From Acidobacteriota bacterium (GTDB lineage: Bacteria; Acidobacteriota; Terriglobia; 20CM-2-55-15), in contig JAHFTY010000009.1 of NCBI GenBank assembly GCA_023265365.1, positions 9,331 to 45,487 on the forward strand: a stretch of DNA of 36,157 nucleotides, given 5' to 3'. Positions within the stretch are counted from its first letter, which is position 1; every line of letters starts with the position of its first letter. This document shows positions 1-13,634 of this stretch, one piece after another. Both the position numbers and the translations under genes were made by a program. The notes beneath the pieces were generated by a model that was not told the origin of the DNA, ran no database searches, and saw only the letters and a list, made by a program, of their open reading frames with translations.

Positions 1-486
1 TCGACGGAGCCGCAGGCGAACGCCATTCTGACGGCGCTGCGGACGAATGGATTTCGGGCATCGGACATTTCGGTGGTTCTGCCGAGACGATCCGCTGACA
101 CGAAAAACATCTCGGTCAGGGAAGATGCGATTCGCGGAGCTGAGACCGGCGGTGCAATCGGAGGAGTCGTGGGATTGGTGGCAGGCTTTGCGGCGCTGGC
201 GCTTCCCGGCGTCGGCCCGATCCTGGTGGCGGGCCCGCTCGTTTCCGCGTTGGGTGGAGCGGCGGTTGGAGGTGCGGTTGGTGGGCTCGCCGGTGGAAGC
301 GGGGCGTTTCATCCGCTCGGACTTCCGAAAGAGGTGGCCCACCGGATTGAAGAGCGACTCCGCTCGGGGGATATCCTGATCTCCATTCACTCGGACGATC
401 CGGATGTTCTGCGACGCGCCGGGAATCTCTTCCAGACAGCGGGGGCCGGCATCGTCGGACCGGCGGAACAGGACAGAGCCGCTTAG
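1..486 (+). CDS. General stress protein, YflT/GSP17M-like, glycine-zipper (5' truncated)
   Basis: The reading frame is open from the first base and stops at 484-486, so the true start lies upstream. The visible N-terminal part (A-I-L-x-A-L-x-x-N-G-F, then D-I-S-V-V) matches the short ferredoxin-like fold of YflT/GSP17M proteins. It is followed by a Gly/Ala-rich segment (GGAIGGVVGLVAG, then repeated GGA.VGGA.GG) typical of glycine zippers that insert in membranes, and by a C-terminal block ending GDILISIHSDDPD that resembles the second half of the same family. The role in this family is poorly defined and usually linked to general stress. The 52-nt gap to the permease gene could carry a promoter. 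Confidence 0.7.
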   Translation, partial: STEPQANAILTALRTNGFRASDISVVLPRRSADTKNISVREDAIRGAETGGAIGGVVGLVAGFAALALPGVGPILVAGPLVSALGGAAVGGAVGGLAGGSGAFHPLGLPKEVAHRIEERLRSGDILISIHSDDPDVLRRAGNLFQTAGAGIVGPAEQDRAA

Positions 487-538
487 AAACGGCGTTTGAC
501 AGTTGTGGTACAGTTTCGCCCTTCCGGAGGCGAAATCC

Positions 539-2173
539 ATGTGGGAACACAACTATCAACCTGTCGGCGGCAGCCTCGGACTCTCTGCCATCGTGGCTGC
601 CATCCCGCTGCTGGTTTTGTTTTACATGCTCGGCGTGAAGCGAAAGCCAAGCTGGCTTGCCGCCACGAGCGCACTGGGAACGGCATTCGTCGTGGCACTT
701 CTCGGTTTCCGGATGCCGGCGCAATTGGCGATCACGTCGGTCGCCTACGGCGTGGCGTTCGGTTTGTTTCCGATCGCCTGGATCGTGTTCACCTCGATTC
801 TGCTTTACCGTCTCACCGTCGATACCGGGAAGTTTGAAATCATCAAGGACTCCGTCGCCGGACTCACCAATGACCGGCGCCTTCAGGCATTGTTCATCGC
901 ATTTTCGTTTGGCGCCTTTGTCGAAGGCGCCGCCGGATTTGGCGCGCCCGTTGCGGTAGCGGCGGCGATGCTCACCGGACTGGGATTCTCGCCGTTCTAC
1001 GCGGCCGGTATTTGTCTGCTGGCCAACACCGCGCCGGTCGCCTTCGGTTCGATTGGAATCCCGGTGATCACGCTCGCCGGAATTACTGGCCTGCCCGTAC
1101 TTTCGTTGAGCGCGATGGTGGGTCGCATCTGCGCCATGGTTTCGGTGATTATTCCCACATACCTGGTCGTGGTCATGGCCGGAATCGCAGGCGCCATCGA
1201 GGTTCTCCCCGCAATCGTTGCCTGCGGCGTGACGTTTGCCGGCGCGCAGTTCGTCGTCTCGAACTTCGTGGGGCCCGAACTCACCGATATTCTTGGCGCG
1301 CTGTTGTCACTGGCGGCGATGGTCGTGGTGATGAAGGTGTGGCATCCGAAAAAGATCTTCAGGCTGGAGGGCGACGTGCCCGTCGCGGCCACTCCGAAAA
1401 GACATTCGGGCAGGGAAATCTTCATGGCCTGGACGCCGTACCTTCTTCTTGTGGTCTTCGTCCTGGCCTGGGGTTATCCGCCGTTCAAAGCACAACTGGA
1501 TCAATTTACCGTTCCCCTGAATGTGGCAGGTCTTCACAACGCGATCCAGCGGGTTCCTCCCGTCACCAAGGCGGTATCGTCTTACGCCGCAGTCTTCACG
1601 TTCAACTGGCTCAGCGCCTCGGGTACGTCATGCCTTCTAGCCGGGATGACGGCCGCGCTGCTTCTGGGTGTCAGCCCCAAGCGTTACGCCGGCATCTACA
1701 AAGCGACGGCAAAACAACTCGCGTTTCCGATCATGACCATCGCATCGATGCTGGGCGTTGCGTATTTGATGAACTATTCCGGAATGACATCGACTCTCGG
1801 TCTCGCCTTTGCCGCGACCGGGAGCGCCTTCCCGTTCTTCAGCGCCATTCTGGGATGGCTTGGAGTCTTTCTCACGGGCAGCGACACGTCGGCCAACGCG
1901 TTGTTCGGCAATTTGCAGGTGGTCACGGCCCGAGCGCTGTCCATCAATCCGGTTCTCACCGCCTCGGTCAACTCCGCCGGCGGCGTCATGGGCAAAATGA
2001 TCTCGCTGTCGAGTATCGCCGTTGCGGTTGCCGCCACAGGCATGAAGCCTTCAGACGAGGGCAAACTCTTCCGGTTCACACTGCGCCACAGCATTCTGTT
2101 GGCCACCGTCATTGGAATCATCGCCATGGGATTCGCCTATCTGGCGCCGGGATTGATTCCGCTGGCGCCATGA
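539..2173 (+). CDS. lldP: L-lactate permease family transporter
   Basis: This is a roughly 544-residue polytopic inner-membrane protein of the LldP/LctP family, which imports L-lactate (sometimes D-lactate or glycolate) with protons. Family signatures are visible: FGAFVEGAAGFGAPVAVA in the first third, and TGSDTSANALFG followed by SAGGVMGKMIS near the C terminus. The length is normal for the family. I chose the ATG at 539 (MWEHNYQPVGG) because family members begin with a W-x-x-N-Y-x-P motif and because GGAGG lies 8 nt upstream at 526-530; an in-frame ATG at 503 has no such support. The next gene begins 40 nt downstream on the same strand, so co-transcription with the amidase pair is possible. 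Confidence 0.9.
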   Translation: MWEHNYQPVGGSLGLSAIVAAIPLLVLFYMLGVKRKPSWLAATSALGTAFVVALLGFRMPAQLAITSVAYGVAFGLFPIAWIVFTSILLYRLTVDTGKFEIIKDSVAGLTNDRRLQALFIAFSFGAFVEGAAGFGAPVAVAAAMLTGLGFSPFYAAGICLLANTAPVAFGSIGIPVITLAGITGLPVLSLSAMVGRICAMVSVIIPTYLVVVMAGIAGAIEVLPAIVACGVTFAGAQFVVSNFVGPELTDILGALLSLAAMVVVMKVWHPKKIFRLEGDVPVAATPKRHSGREIFMAWTPYLLLVVFVLAWGYPPFKAQLDQFTVPLNVAGLHNAIQRVPPVTKAVSSYAAVFTFNWLSASGTSCLLAGMTAALLLGVSPKRYAGIYKATAKQLAFPIMTIASMLGVAYLMNYSGMTSTLGLAFAATGSAFPFFSAILGWLGVFLTGSDTSANALFGNLQVVTARALSINPVLTASVNSAGGVMGKMISLSSIAVAVAATGMKPSDEGKLFRFTLRHSILLATVIGIIAMGFAYLAPGLIPLAP

Positions 2174-2213
2174 TTCCCGAAATCGATTAGAATTCCGAGC
2201 GCGGAGGTTAACC

Positions 2214-2513
2214 ATGAAATCGAAGATCACTGAAAAGCCCGTCTCCCGGCGAAAAATGCTCCAGTTGCTCGCCGCGCTCGGAATCACCGGCCCGGCGGCG
2301 ACGGAAATTCTGGCGCAGTCGAAAGGCGGGGCGCTTTCCCCGGAGATTCTGAAAACGGCAAACGCGTTGATCGACCAACAGTTTTCCGATGAGCGGCTGA
2401 AAGTCGTGACGGCCGCGCTGCAGCGGAACCTCGATCAATTCCAGATCGTTCGCGATCTCGAGATTGACGACTCCGTGGAACCCGCTCCCATCTTTAACGC
2501 GAAGCTGAGGTAA
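2214..2513 (+). CDS. Tat-signal small protein, GatC/AtzG-like amidase partner
   Basis: This 99-residue protein has a GGAGG site at 2203-2207. The N terminus contains S-R-R-K-M-L-Q followed by the hydrophobic stretch LLAALGITGPAA, a good twin-arginine signal with Met for the usual Phe. The remainder is helical and ends in RDLEIDDSVEPAPIF. That tail resembles the C terminus of AtzG and GatC, small proteins that wrap around amidase-family catalytic subunits (family knowledge). The stop is only 2 nt before the amidase ATG, so the two are almost certainly co-translated. I infer that it is an exported accessory subunit for the amidase, which has no signal of its own. A generic Tat-anchored protein of unknown role is the alternative. 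Confidence 0.65.
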   Translation: MKSKITEKPVSRRKMLQLLAALGITGPAATEILAQSKGGALSPEILKTANALIDQQFSDERLKVVTAALQRNLDQFQIVRDLEIDDSVEPAPIFNAKLR

Positions 2514-2515
2514 TC

Positions 2516-3934
2516 ATGGCGAACAACGATCTTGTCTTCCAGAGCGGCCGCGAACTGGCGGCGATGATCAAAGCGCGGAAGATCTCACCGGTTGAATTGA
2601 CTCAGGCGTATCTCGATCGCATTGCCGCGCTGAATCCAAAACTGAATGCGTTTATTACCGTCACCAAAGATGTCGCATTGGCGCAGGCGAAGCAGGCGGA
2701 GAAAGACATCGCTGCGGGAAAGTATCTGGGTGCACTCCACGGCCTGCCGTACGCGCCGAAAGATATTCTGGCGACCAAGGGAATCCTGACCACCAACGGT
2801 TCGAAGGTGACGGCCGACTGGGTTCCGAACTACGAATCGACCGTGACAGAACGTCTGGCCAGGTCCGGAGCCGTTCTGCTCGGCAAACTCAACCTTCTCG
2901 AATTCGCCATGGGCAGCGGCACCCTCTCGGGATTCGGTCCGGCGCGCAATCCGTGGCATACCGACTATTCGCCTTCGGGTTCGTCCAGCGGTTCGGGTGC
3001 AGCGCTCGCGGCGTACATGACTCCGCTGTCGATCGGAACCGACACGGGCGGATCGATTCGAGGACCCGCTTCGTTTTGCGGCATCGTCGGATTGAAGCAA
3101 ACCTACGGTCGTGTCAGCCGATACGGGGTCACCACGCTTGCCTGGACACTCGATCACGCGGGACCGATGACGAAGACCGTCGCGGACGCGGCAGCCATGC
3201 TCCAGGTCATCGCCGGTCATGACCCCAGGGATCCCACCACGAGCCGCGAGCCCGTTCCGGACTATTCGAAAGCGCTCACGGGCAATGTGAAGGGCCTGCG
3301 CATCGGCGTTCCCAAAACCTATTTCTTCGAAAACCAGAATCCCGAATCCGACAAGGCCACAAAGGCGGCGATTCAGAAACTGGTGGAGATGGGAGCCACG
3401 ACGGTGGACGTCGACGTTCCACACGCCAAATACGCGGGATCGGCGGGCTGGATCGTCGCGATGGCGGAGGCTGCGTGCTTCCACGAAAAGCGGCTTCGCC
3501 AGAAACCGGAACTGTTCGATCCCGTCGTTCGAGAGCGTCTCGAGGCCGCAAAGTTTTACTCGGCGACCGATTACCTCAAAGCCCTCCGGGTCCGGAGTAT
3601 TCTCCAGGATGAGATGGCGAAGGTATTCGAGAAATGCGACGTGATGGCTGTCCCGGGCGGAAGTCCCGCCAGCAAACTGGAACCGCCGGAAACCGCCAAA
3701 AGCGATGTGAAGCCCGGTTCGGCCGCCCCGGCATTCCGCGGTGGAAACACCTTCATCGGGAACATGACCGGATATCCCGAAATCGTGATCCCATGCGGTT
3801 TTACGACCGCCGCACCCACACTGCCGCTCACGATCGGTTTTTACGCAAAGCCGTTCGATGAATTGAATCTCTTCCGCGCCGCCTACGCCTACGAGTCGGC
3901 AACGGACTGGCACAAGAAGCGGCCAACTCTATAG
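2516..3934 (+). CDS. Amidase signature family hydrolase
   Basis: This 472-residue protein belongs to the amidase-signature superfamily (GatA, AtzE, AtzF, fatty-acid amide hydrolase type), which hydrolyses or transfers amide nitrogen using a Ser-cisSer-Lys triad. Lys82 is in Y-A-P-K-D, the cis-Ser lies in GSSSGSGAA (about residue 156), and the nucleophile Ser180 is in GTDTGGSIRGPA. All three are present, so it should be active. The substrate cannot be read from sequence. No signal peptide is visible, yet the gene directly upstream encodes a Tat-signal protein that looks like an amidase partner subunit. It faces a second amidase gene across a repeat element; the two are distinct paralogues, not recent duplicates. 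Confidence 0.9.
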   Translation: MANNDLVFQSGRELAAMIKARKISPVELTQAYLDRIAALNPKLNAFITVTKDVALAQAKQAEKDIAAGKYLGALHGLPYAPKDILATKGILTTNGSKVTADWVPNYESTVTERLARSGAVLLGKLNLLEFAMGSGTLSGFGPARNPWHTDYSPSGSSSGSGAALAAYMTPLSIGTDTGGSIRGPASFCGIVGLKQTYGRVSRYGVTTLAWTLDHAGPMTKTVADAAAMLQVIAGHDPRDPTTSREPVPDYSKALTGNVKGLRIGVPKTYFFENQNPESDKATKAAIQKLVEMGATTVDVDVPHAKYAGSAGWIVAMAEAACFHEKRLRQKPELFDPVVRERLEAAKFYSATDYLKALRVRSILQDEMAKVFEKCDVMAVPGGSPASKLEPPETAKSDVKPGSAAPAFRGGNTFIGNMTGYPEIVIPCGFTTAAPTLPLTIGFYAKPFDELNLFRAAYAYESATDWHKKRPTL

Positions 3935-3948
3935 AACCGGTGTCTTTT

Positions 3949-4163
3949 TTTCCCCGCCTTGGCCAAGACTTGGCAAAGGCGGGGTGCCGTGATAGCGGCG
4001 GGGCGGTTCGTTTAATAAAATCGATTTCTTGAACAGCACCACCCCGGCGCTTCGCGCCACCCCTCCTCGACGAGGAGGGGAAAACGCTTTTCCACGATTT
4101 CGCTTCATTGGTACAGCAGTGCCTCAACGGAGGGGAAAACGTTTTTCCACGATTTCACCTTAG
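3949..4163 (+). repeat. Dispersed structured intergenic repeat, copy A
   Basis: This is the first of four copies of one multi-hairpin element, lying between two convergent amidase genes. Hairpin 1 (3952-3984) has 16-nt arms with one mismatch, longer than the 11-nt arms CCCCGCCTTGG/CCAAGGCGGGG of copies C and D. After GCCG...CGGC and an AT-richer stretch come GGCGC-TTC-GCGCC (4046-4058) and a 10-bp stem CCCCTCCTCG-A-CGAGGAGGGG (4060-4080). A small GGAAAA-CGC-TTTTCC hairpin closes the element. The tail (AGGGGAAAACG, then TTTTCCACGATTTC) is duplicated imperfectly about 54 nt further on. The strand given is that of the reference orientation shared by all copies. Confidence 0.85.
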
Positions 4164-4173
4164 ACCGCGGGCA

Positions 4174-5457
4174 TTAAAGCCGGCGCCGACTGATCAGGTC
4201 CCCGGCGTGAAACATCATTCCATCGTTCATCGGAGCGGCCGAGATCTGGATCCCGACCGGCAATCCGTTTGAAGCTTTTCCGGCAGGCAGTGTGAGCGTG
4301 GGGAAGTCGGCCAGCGCCCACGGGCCGGAGAAGCCCGGATCGCCCGTATATCCCAGCCCCTCGGGCGCCGTGTCCTTCGCGCCGGGCGAGAGCAGAATAT
4401 CGAACCGTTCAAACAGTCGTGTCATTTCTTTCTGATACGCCTTCCGCAGGCGCAGCGCCCGCAGATAATCCTGTGCGCCGACGAGCATTCCGGTTTCAAC
4501 CAAACCTCGAAGCTTCTTGCTGTAAAGCGCTGAATTCTCGCGATAGAACTCGGTGTGCGCGGAGGCGACTTCCGTCTTTAACAGGATCGCAAGAATGGCC
4601 GCCTGCACTTCGAAGATCTGCGGCAGGGGTGCTTCTTCCAGCAGGAGGTCCGGGCCGGCAAGCGTCTTCAGGAATGCTTCGTGAAGATCGTGAATTTCCG
4701 GTGTCGCATTCTCCGAAAAGAATCCGCGAACAACTCCGACTCTTAATGGACCGGAACGATCCGCGGCGGGCACCGGCACGCCGGAAAGCGCTTCGAGCAT
4801 CAGTTTGGCATCCGCTACAGACCGGCACAGACCGCCGATATGGTCGAGCGACCAGGACACCGGAAAGACGCCTTTGCGGCTCACTCGCGACTGAGTCGGC
4901 ATGAATCCGACAACGCCGCAATAGGCGGCCGGCCTTCCGATCGAGCCGACGGTCTGTGTGCCGGTCGCGGCGGGAATCATGCAGGCGCCGACCGCCGCGG
5001 CAGATCCGCTGCTGGACCCGCCGGGCGTATGGCCGGGATTGGCGGGATTCCTGGTCGGTCCCGGGTCGAACGATGCGAATTCCGTGGTCACCGTCTTTCC
5101 CAGAACGATGGCGCCTGCCTTCTTAAGCTGAGTGACGGACGCCGCGTCCTTGCCGGGAACGAAGTCCTGAAGGAACCTGGATCCTGCGGTGGTGCGAAGA
5201 CCGGCCGTGTAAAAGATGTCCTTGATCCCGACCGGAACGCCGTGGAGCGCGCCCCGAAATCTTCCAGCCTTTGCCTCGGTTTCGCAGGCTTTCGCTTCTT
5301 CCAGGGCGCGATCGGCATCGAGCGTGACCCATGCGCGGATTTCCGGTTCACGGTCCTCAATGTGTGAGAGAAGCGCCCGAACATATTCGACCGGCGATAT
5401 CTCGCCGGAACGGATTGCGGCAGCGGCGCCGGTGAGCGTCAGATTTTCAAATTTCAT
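4174..5457 (-). CDS. Amidase signature family hydrolase (second paralogue)
   Basis: This is a 427-residue amidase-superfamily enzyme. The Lys of the triad is in P-V-G-I-K-D, the cis-Ser in GGSSSGSAAA, and the nucleophilic Ser in TQTVGSIGRPAAYCG. The usual Gly-Gly before that Ser is Val-Gly here, a mild departure from the family pattern. It more closely resembles the AtzE-like or general amidase branch than GatA, because the characteristic GatA C-terminal extension is missing. The substrate is unknown and there is no signal peptide. The start at 5457 overlaps the end of a 46-codon gene (5447-5587) by 11 nt and lacks a clear Shine-Dalgarno site, so translation is probably coupled to that small gene. 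Confidence 0.88.
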   Translation of the reverse strand: MKFENLTLTGAAAAIRSGEISPVEYVRALLSHIEDREPEIRAWVTLDADRALEEAKACETEAKAGRFRGALHGVPVGIKDIFYTAGLRTTAGSRFLQDFVPGKDAASVTQLKKAGAIVLGKTVTTEFASFDPGPTRNPANPGHTPGGSSSGSAAAVGACMIPAATGTQTVGSIGRPAAYCGVVGFMPTQSRVSRKGVFPVSWSLDHIGGLCRSVADAKLMLEALSGVPVPAADRSGPLRVGVVRGFFSENATPEIHDLHEAFLKTLAGPDLLLEEAPLPQIFEVQAAILAILLKTEVASAHTEFYRENSALYSKKLRGLVETGMLVGAQDYLRALRLRKAYQKEMTRLFERFDILLSPGAKDTAPEGLGYTGDPGFSGPWALADFPTLTLPAGKASNGLPVGIQISAAPMNDGMMFHAGDLISRRRL

Positions 5458-11395: not shown

Positions 11396-12445
11396 ATGAG
11401 CCACCCACGCCTTGCATCGCTCGCGTTGATCCTCGTGCTGTCGGTACCGGCTTTTTCTCAGACGTCCAAGACACCGCGAGTTCTGGTCATTGGAACAGGC
11501 GGGACGATTTCCGGCGGCGCCGATCCGGTGACGGGCCAGGCCAAAAGCCTGACGGCGAAGGATCTGGTGGCTCTGGTCCCGACGCTAAAAGGGAAGGTCG
11601 AGATTGAGGAGGAAGACTTCACCAACATCGGCAGTTCCTCGATGACGCCCGAGATCCAATTCAGACTGGCCGAACGCGTTGCGGATGTGTTCAGGACCCG
11701 GGCCGATCTCTCCGGTGTCGTGATCACACACGGAACGGATTCTCTCGAAGAAACATCGTTTCTTCTCGATCTGATCCTCACGGATCCACGGCCCGTTGTA
11801 TTCGCGGCGGCGCAGCGTCCGCCGCGCGTATCCGACTCAGACGGCCCAAGAAATCTGGAGAACGCGGTCCGCACGGCAATAGCGCCGCAGGCGAGAGATA
11901 AAGGCGTCATGGTTTCCCTGAACGAAGACCTGCACGCGGCGCGGTATGTGACGAAGAGCCATGCGGTGGCGGTCGAAGCATTCCAGTCCGGAAAGAAGGG
12001 AATGCTCGGCACCGTCGACAACGGCCACGTGATCTTCTACAACGCGCCGATGAACCGCGTCACGATTCCGGCCAGGTCGGTCGAACCCAGGGTGGATCTG
12101 GTGCGTCTCGTCGCGGGAGATCAGGGAAAGTTCATCAACTTTGCGGTGGAGACCAAATCCGCCGGAATTGTCATTGAGGCGTTTGGCCGCGGAAACATGC
12201 CCCGGCCTGTCGCGGATGCGGTCGATCGAGCGCGGAAGGCCGGCCTGGTTGTGGTGATTGTGTCGCGGACCGCGGAAGGGCGGGTCGAATTGCCGGACTC
12301 GCTTCTAAAAACGGGAGTCATCAGTGGAGAGGATCTTGACGGACTAAAAGCGAGAATTCTCCTGACCGTGGCGCTTGGGGCAACCAAAGATATCTCCACT
12401 ATTCAGAACTGGTTTCACCTCGCCGGCGGCGTCATCGACAAATAG
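11396..12445 (+). CDS. Exported type II-like L-asparaginase
   Basis: This 349-residue asparaginase-family enzyme hydrolyses L-asparagine (possibly glutamine) to the acid and ammonia. A Sec signal peptide (RLASLALILVLSVPAFSQ) places it in the periplasm. The two active-site signatures are present: GTGGTISGG with nucleophile Thr37, and THGTDSLEET with Thr114-Asp115; a Lys in ARYVTKSHA matches the third catalytic position. The length is usual for bacterial type II enzymes. The gene stands alone on the plus strand with its own probable promoter. Together with the two amidases, it indicates scavenging of amide nitrogen. Confidence 0.92.
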   Translation: MSHPRLASLALILVLSVPAFSQTSKTPRVLVIGTGGTISGGADPVTGQAKSLTAKDLVALVPTLKGKVEIEEEDFTNIGSSSMTPEIQFRLAERVADVFRTRADLSGVVITHGTDSLEETSFLLDLILTDPRPVVFAAAQRPPRVSDSDGPRNLENAVRTAIAPQARDKGVMVSLNEDLHAARYVTKSHAVAVEAFQSGKKGMLGTVDNGHVIFYNAPMNRVTIPARSVEPRVDLVRLVAGDQGKFINFAVETKSAGIVIEAFGRGNMPRPVADAVDRARKAGLVVVIVSRTAEGRVELPDSLLKTGVISGEDLDGLKARILLTVALGATKDISTIQNWFHLAGGVIDK

Positions 12446-12533: not shown

Positions 12534-13634
12534 ATGAATAGAAGAAAATTTTTGAAGACGGCCACTTCGATCGGCGCGGTGAGCGCGGCCGGCAGCACTA
12601 TTGAGGTACTGGGCCAGGTGCAGGCTCCGCCCAGGCCCGCAGCGGCGTCGCCGAGACTCGATATCCACACGCACTACTACACGCAGACGTTCTTCCAGAA
12701 GGTCAGTGACAGCGGCGGACAGTTCGCTTTCGGCAAGGATCCCAAGGGCCAAACCATCATTACTTATAACGGCGCGCGATTTTTCGGCATCACTCCGCCC
12801 ATGACGGACGTGGCGAAGCGTATCGAGGACATGGACCGCGTCGGTATCGATACGGAGGTCGTATCGCTGTCCACGCCCAATGTCTTTTTCGCCGACGAGA
12901 AGGGGCAGCCCGAAGTCGCAAAGTTGATGAACGATGCCTACGCCGAACTCATCGCGAAATACCCGAAACGCTTCAAGGGATTTGCCTCCATCCCCATGGA
13001 TGCCCCCGATGCCGCGCTCAACGAACTGCATCGCGCCATCAATACGCTGAAGCTCAACGGAGTCATTCTGCTCAGTAATATTCGCGGCGCCAACCTGACG
13101 GATACCCGGTACCGGCCGTTCTTCCAGGAAGCCAATCGAATGAAGCTGACGATCTTTCTTCACCCCATGCTTCCGGTCGCTTCGGAACCGTTCAAAGAGT
13201 ATGTGCTCGGTCCCATCATCGGTTTCCCTTTCGATACCACGCTCGCCGTGGCGCGCATGTGTTACGCCGGCATGTTCAAAGACTTTCCGGACATCAAATG
13301 GATCATCGGCCACGCCGGCGGCGCAATCCCATTCCTGATGGAGCGGTTGGACAGCGGTTATCGCGACTTTGCGGAAACGAAGGAAAAGCTGGACCAGCTT
13401 CCGAGCTTCTACTTTCGAAAGCTGTACTACGACTGCGTCACATTCAACCCCTACAACCTTCACATGCTTCGCGACGAGATGGGAACCGATCACATGCTGA
13501 TGGGGAGCGACTACCCGCACCTGTTGGGATCGATTGAAAAATCCGTCAGCTCGATTGAAGCGCTTGCGATCCCTCAGGTGGAGAAAGCCCGGATCCTCGG
13601 CGGAAATGCGCTCGCCATCCTGAACAACATATGA
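12534..13634 (+). CDS. Tat-exported amidohydrolase (ACMSD / amidohydrolase-2 type)
   Basis: This 366-residue protein begins M-N-R-R-K-F-L-K, a near-perfect twin-arginine motif, followed by a weakly hydrophobic segment and an Ala/Pro-rich cleavage region. The mature domain is a metal-dependent TIM barrel of the amidohydrolase-2 family: D-I-H-T-H near its start, F-L-H-P, the G-H-A-G-G block and M-G-S-D-Y-P-H. Relatives include aminocarboxymuconate-semialdehyde and gamma-resorcylate decarboxylases, so a decarboxylase or hydrolase of an aromatic or ring-cleavage acid is likely; the substrate is unknown. GGAGG lies 5 nt before the ATG. The stop overlaps the next ATG by 4 nt (ATGA). Confidence 0.88.
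   Translation: MNRRKFLKTATSIGAVSAAGSTIEVLGQVQAPPRPAAASPRLDIHTHYYTQTFFQKVSDSGGQFAFGKDPKGQTIITYNGARFFGITPPMTDVAKRIEDMDRVGIDTEVVSLSTPNVFFADEKGQPEVAKLMNDAYAELIAKYPKRFKGFASIPMDAPDAALNELHRAINTLKLNGVILLSNIRGANLTDTRYRPFFQEANRMKLTIFLHPMLPVASEPFKEYVLGPIIGFPFDTTLAVARMCYAGMFKDFPDIKWIIGHAGGAIPFLMERLDSGYRDFAETKEKLDQLPSFYFRKLYYDCVTFNPYNLHMLRDEMGTDHMLMGSDYPHLLGSIEKSVSSIEALAIPQVEKARILGGNALAILNNI

Follow-up and report, generated by a model that had tools for sequence, protein, structure and literature searches.

The window analysed here is the whole 36,157-nucleotide stretch of an Acidobacteriota genome (GenBank assembly GCA_023265365.1, contig JAHFTY010000009.1). It contains two adjacent genes, one for a small protein combining a Tat-type signal with a GatC/AtzG-like domain and one for an amidase without any signal, and both follow a permease gene on the same strand. 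The features of this locus and the evidence for each are as follows.

503..2173, + strand: LctP-family L-lactate permease (TIGR00795, E=4e-161; PF02652, E=4.2e-165)
2203..2207, + strand: Shine-Dalgarno-like GGAGG preceding the small gene (sequence)
2214..2513, + strand: small subunit gene, 99 aa, with Tat signal and GatC/AtzG-like domain (ORF, Pfam, alignments, AlphaFold, Foldseek)
2214..2315, + strand: Tat-type signal, residues 1-34 (sequence; both arginines unchanged throughout alignments A1, A3 and A7)
2334..2495, + strand: GatC/AtzG-like domain, residues 41-94 (PF13318, E=0.0025; AlphaFold model; Foldseek)
2516..3934, + strand: signal-less amidase-signature hydrolase, 472 aa, GatA/AtzE-like (PF01425, E=1.4e-111; among solved structures, GatA and AtzE chains come closest)
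2759..2761, + strand: assigned catalytic Lys82 (motif and spacing)
2981..2983, + strand: assigned cis-Ser156 (motif and spacing)
3053..3055, + strand: assigned nucleophile Ser180 in GGSIR (motif and spacing)

According to the ORFs of the window, 2 nt lie between the stop of the small gene and the start of the amidase gene. The permease gene ends 40 nt 5′ of the small gene, and it possibly forms one operon with the amidase pair; its presence weakly suggests that a small 2-hydroxy acid may be released by the amidase and then taken up. In a consensus scan of the + strand from 300 to 4200, no promoter-like site was seen. A second, divergent amidase (4174-5457, − strand), convergent with the first and sitting on a long branch (2.01) of the amidase tree, has neither a small partner nor a signal. 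Two more putative exported amide hydrolases were recognised by eye near the pair: the first (11396-12445, + strand) resembles an asparaginase and has a Sec-type signal, and the one following it (12534-13634, + strand) resembles an amidohydrolase and has the Tat-type start NRRKFLK.

The membership of the window amidase in the amidase signature family is significant. Its triad, K82/S156/S180, was assigned by motif and spacing relative to the known family, and no variation was seen at the corresponding positions of 30 fused relatives. The amidase domain starts at once, without an N-terminal hydrophobic segment, which bears out the description in an earlier note of this DNA (an amidase 2 nt downstream of the small gene, with an intact triad and no signal peptide). 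Identity with GatA of the GatCAB complex was considered and rejected, as the match to the gatA equivalog reached 352.1 bits against a cut-off of 481.1 and no GatB was recognised among the genes neighbouring the pair.

The N-terminus of the small protein reads MKSKITEKPVSRRKMLQLLAALGITGPAATEILAQS. As that note had stated, SRRKMLQ (residues 11-17) is followed by a hydrophobic region, and the twin arginines occupy residues 12-13 (2247-2252). A plausible cleavage site, ILA|QS, lies between residues 34 and 35, after A34. The same genome encodes TatC and two TatA/B proteins, so that a [ST]RRxF-type motif, a hydrophobic region and genomic Tat genes, the features by which a Tat substrate is recognised, are all present.

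The GatC/AtzG-like nature of the remaining part is weak in the window sequence, since the match to PF13318 (AtzG-like; residues 50-94, 18.6 bits) falls below the cut-off of 24. The same family matches 5 of 15 split-type small proteins at E-values up to 1, the best being 1.5e-4, and the Pfam families that lead in scans of the relatives are AtzG-like, GatC, GatF and Gta3, all of which denote GatC-type subunits. R12, R13, R80, P90 and F94 are invariant in 15 diverse small proteins of the split type. The AlphaFold model (mean pLDDT 69.7, mostly 75-85 in the helices and tail) shows helices at residues 43-52 and 59-80 and then an extended tail ending EPAPIF. The earlier note had placed IDDSVEPAPIF at the very end of the protein; this segment is indeed present (residues 84-94), but five more residues (NAKLR) follow it. 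A Foldseek search with the predicted fold returned exclusively GatC/AtzG/GatF chains as the top 11 of 350,542 entries, with E-values of 0.2-2.8, none of them significant. In profile comparisons, hhalign gave a probability of 86% between a profile of the mature parts and a Tat-less small ORF upstream of another amidase of this genome (L010), an ORF that itself has no Pfam match, and 72% between profile A3 and the genome's own GatC. No significant similarity to AtzG of pADP-1 was found by hhalign, and a PDB profile search with alignment A1 yielded chance matches only.

Each of these pieces is modest, and jointly they point in one direction. It could be argued that the small protein is an unrelated Tat-bearing helper with a role like that of MelC1, whose likeness to GatC amounts to two helices, and indeed none of the individual comparisons with AtzG or GatC, whether of sequence or of fold, settles the matter. 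However, the lead of GatC-type families across many members, the uniform top Foldseek matches, the conserved R..EPA..F tail and the position directly upstream of a GatA-type amidase make this highly improbable. The resemblance claimed in the earlier note thus appears to be real, weak in the single sequence and, judging from conservation, well beyond chance across homologues.

Approximately 30 amidase-signature genes are present in the 4.7 Mb of the same genome. Four of them belong to split Tat pairs (the window pair, L002, L003 and L021, with gaps of 2, -4, 4 and 2 nt); in at least six fusions, intact or nearly so (L004-L008 and L032, L008 being cut by its contig end), a single chain comprises signal, GatC-like domain and amidase. 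There is also a GatC/GatA pair without a Tat signal (L009), as well as the L010 amidase with its Tat-less GatC/AtzG-like small ORF, while the remaining amidases have a Tat or Sec signal of their own, or none. A 74% identical paralogue pair (L002/L240) adjoins an outer-membrane-barrel type protein in a stretch with runs of N. L012 and L017, two amidases from the clade of the window pair, have neither a signal nor a small partner gene nearby; they may act in the cytoplasm or rely on a partner supplied in trans. In addition, a 64-aa Tat/GatC-like N-terminus without an amidase (L099:1554-1746) is probably the remnant of a decayed fusion, and another fusion (L100) lacks part of its amidase domain.

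Outside this genome, the split-type profile A7, which picks up fused as well as split forms, matches 127 of 396 Acidobacteriota, 104 of 249 Gemmatimonadota and 15 of 246 Planctomycetota genomes, and a scan of genome contigs revealed further fusions in records named KSB1, Krumholzibacteriia and others. One contig (L121) is titled Gammaproteobacteria, but its genome, G409, also falls within the phylum of the Gemmatimonadota genome G407, and the title is probably wrong. No match of the small protein was found in plasmids or phages. In total, 58 distinct split pairs and 69 distinct natural one-chain fusions were collected, mostly from Acidobacteriota and Gemmatimonadota; the pair therefore recurs in other genomes, and failure to co-occur, which the earlier note had named as a ground for refutation, does not apply. 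The amidase starts between -11 and +10 nt from the stop of the small gene in 56 of the 58 split pairs, with a 4-nt overlap in 18, and none of the partner amidases of these pairs has a hydrophobic N-terminus. Among the genes neighbouring the other pairs, no constant neighbour that would name the substrate was found.

The signal itself is strongly conserved, mostly as [TS]RRxF. RR is present in 55 of the 58 split small subunits (the exceptions being one with RK, one cut at a contig end and one with RR upstream of the matched region) and in 66 of the 69 fusions, although these frequencies are partly ascertained because the profiles that brought in most homologues span the Tat region. When every collected locus was re-scored with a profile of the mature domain only (A10), RR stood upstream of 105 of 112 distinct domains; this control reduces the bias without fully removing it, as many loci had been gathered with Tat-containing profiles. 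The seven other domains comprise four with Sec-type or anchor-like N-termini, two with RK and one cut by a contig end. Beyond the small size of the gene, nothing speaks for the twin arginines being a chance occurrence in an ordinary short ORF, and both this conservation and the paralogue pair of the same genome refute such an origin, whose probability we regard as negligible. A lipobox-like Cys occurs in approximately 20 small subunits, in its strict form in L194, L205, L223 and L225, and another lipobox is found in a planctomycetal one (L263); in these subunits and in the L182-L201 group, the cysteines come after the Tat signal. These residues suggest lipid-anchored amidase complexes.

In three genomes of one family, a small Tat/GatC-like gene has no adjacent amidase (L097:204-492, L098 and L105) and lies directly upstream of a thiD-like gene; by eye, a MOSC-like gene is seen upstream of it in L098 and L105. 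Such orphans would fit a small subunit that is exported alone or freed from the amidase before export, for example as a one-use chaperone, and that acts elsewhere. We consider this very unlikely, given the constant coupling to amidase genes and the intact catalytic core that the one-chain fusions retain.

The fusions also offer a structural view of the pair. The model of one of them (L107; pLDDT 87.5, pTM 0.90) has helices at 48-57 and 64-85 and then an extended stretch leading into the amidase, so that the one model takes in a GatC-like hairpin, its tail and the amidase. GatA and plant fatty acid amide hydrolase rank highest among the structures that it matches, and AtzE ranks lower; nearly the whole chain, including the N-terminal helices, aligns with the plant enzyme in Foldseek at TM 0.70-0.74. 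When the small domain was examined for covariation with the amidase (125 pairs, Neff approximately 61-67, too few sequences), no pattern common to both the split and the fused subset emerged. In the amidase tree, the fusions form one clade (support 100) nested among split pairs, which implies that fusion arose once in this sample. A second clade unites the window pair with L002, L096 and L086 as well as the partnerless L012 and L017. The Tat-bearing partner is thus associated with at least two amidase lineages.

Considering that the pair or its fusion recurs in hundreds of genomes, the amidase very probably leaves the cytoplasm as the cargo of its partner. Specifically, we think it likely that the signal-less amidase is exported by the Tat-bearing GatC/AtzG-like protein as a heterodimer or heterotetramer. 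The small subunit would bind the amidase in the cytoplasm and aid its folding, its N-terminal Tat signal, which may be cleaved, would take the folded complex through the Tat translocase, and the amidase would thereby hitchhike to the periplasm. One lineage has fused both chains into a single protein, predicted to be Tat-exported, and in others the lipobox of the small subunit would hold the complex to the membrane. The hitchhiker idea appears well supported by comparative evidence, although the partnerless L012 and L017, the orphan small proteins and the low PF13318 score of the window protein count against it.

Both AtzG and GatC are known to partner their enzymes in the cytoplasm, and for AtzE the partnership with AtzG is obligate. 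These precedents, together with the two clade members lacking both partner and signal, would agree with a small subunit that is a folding partner only, its signal being inefficient or a membrane anchor and the amidase staying cytoplasmic at the inner face of the membrane. Against this stand the strong conservation of [TS]RRxF, the homologous one-chain fusions, in which the amidase lies in the same chain as, and behind, a Tat signal, other fusions with Sec-type or anchor signals, and the lipobox residues after the signal, which are meaningful only on the outer face. On balance, we judge the folding-only role unlikely and prefer export of the amidase by its partner.

Several known systems share parts of this arrangement. 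AtzE depends on AtzG for solubility, and together they make up an obligate heterotetramer (PMC6219798). If such dependence were valid here, the amidase would have to fold with its partner in the cytoplasm, and Tat would be the natural route, as it is for MelC2 and for hydrogenases. AtzG/AtzE (1-carboxybiuret hydrolase, PF13318 plus amidase) resembles the window pair in that the gene of a small, GatC-like subunit without catalytic function lies 2 nt 5′ of that of a GatA-like amidase, whereas AtzG (68 aa) has no signal-like N-terminus; the window pair is not filed under AtzG because the sequence similarity is too low. In GatC/GatA of GatCAB, too, a small subunit made of two helices and an extended tail goes with an amidase-signature subunit, and GatA is matched by the fused model; unlike GatC/GatA, the window pair has a Tat signal and no adjacent GatB, and the genome has its own GatC/GatA.

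Carriage of a folded, signal-less protein by a signal-bearing partner, which the earlier note had invoked, is documented for MelC1, a small Tat-bearing helper that exports the signal-less MelC2 tyrosinase as a complex (PMC2758597). The gene order is the same, with the helper upstream of the enzyme, whereas enzyme and helper are both different. MelC1 is also required for copper incorporation, whereas amidase-signature enzymes are not known to have a cofactor. Hydrogenase, formate dehydrogenase and PaoABC likewise carry a Tat signal on one subunit only (PMC10924467, PMC4273604), but these are redox enzymes with cofactors, in contrast to the cofactor-free hydrolase of the window. In the literature searched, no description of a Tat-bearing GatC or AtzG was found. 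These findings are in keeping with the proposal that the GatC fold is put to a new use, although hitchhiker export and small Tat-bearing helpers were already known from MelC1/MelC2.

The hitchhiker idea joins in a new way an amidase partner of the GatC type and a Tat hitchhiker, each of them known by itself; the combination appears to be widespread and undescribed in the literature searched. With somewhat less confidence, we favour the broader reading that Tat-exported amidases of two subunits form a widespread family, whose GatC-fold subunit would serve at once as folding partner and export ticket and, in certain lineages, also as lipid anchor. The amidase would use Tat, not Sec, because it can fold only with its partner in the cytoplasm, and the fusion would be the derived state. 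If true, Tat hitchhiking, mostly a matter of redox enzymes loaded with cofactors, would extend to a family of hydrolases that have none, the GatC fold would gain a new role as an export escort, and the placement of many amidases that look cytoplasmic for want of a signal of their own would be corrected. The series of split and fused forms provides a natural experiment on what makes a partner exportable.
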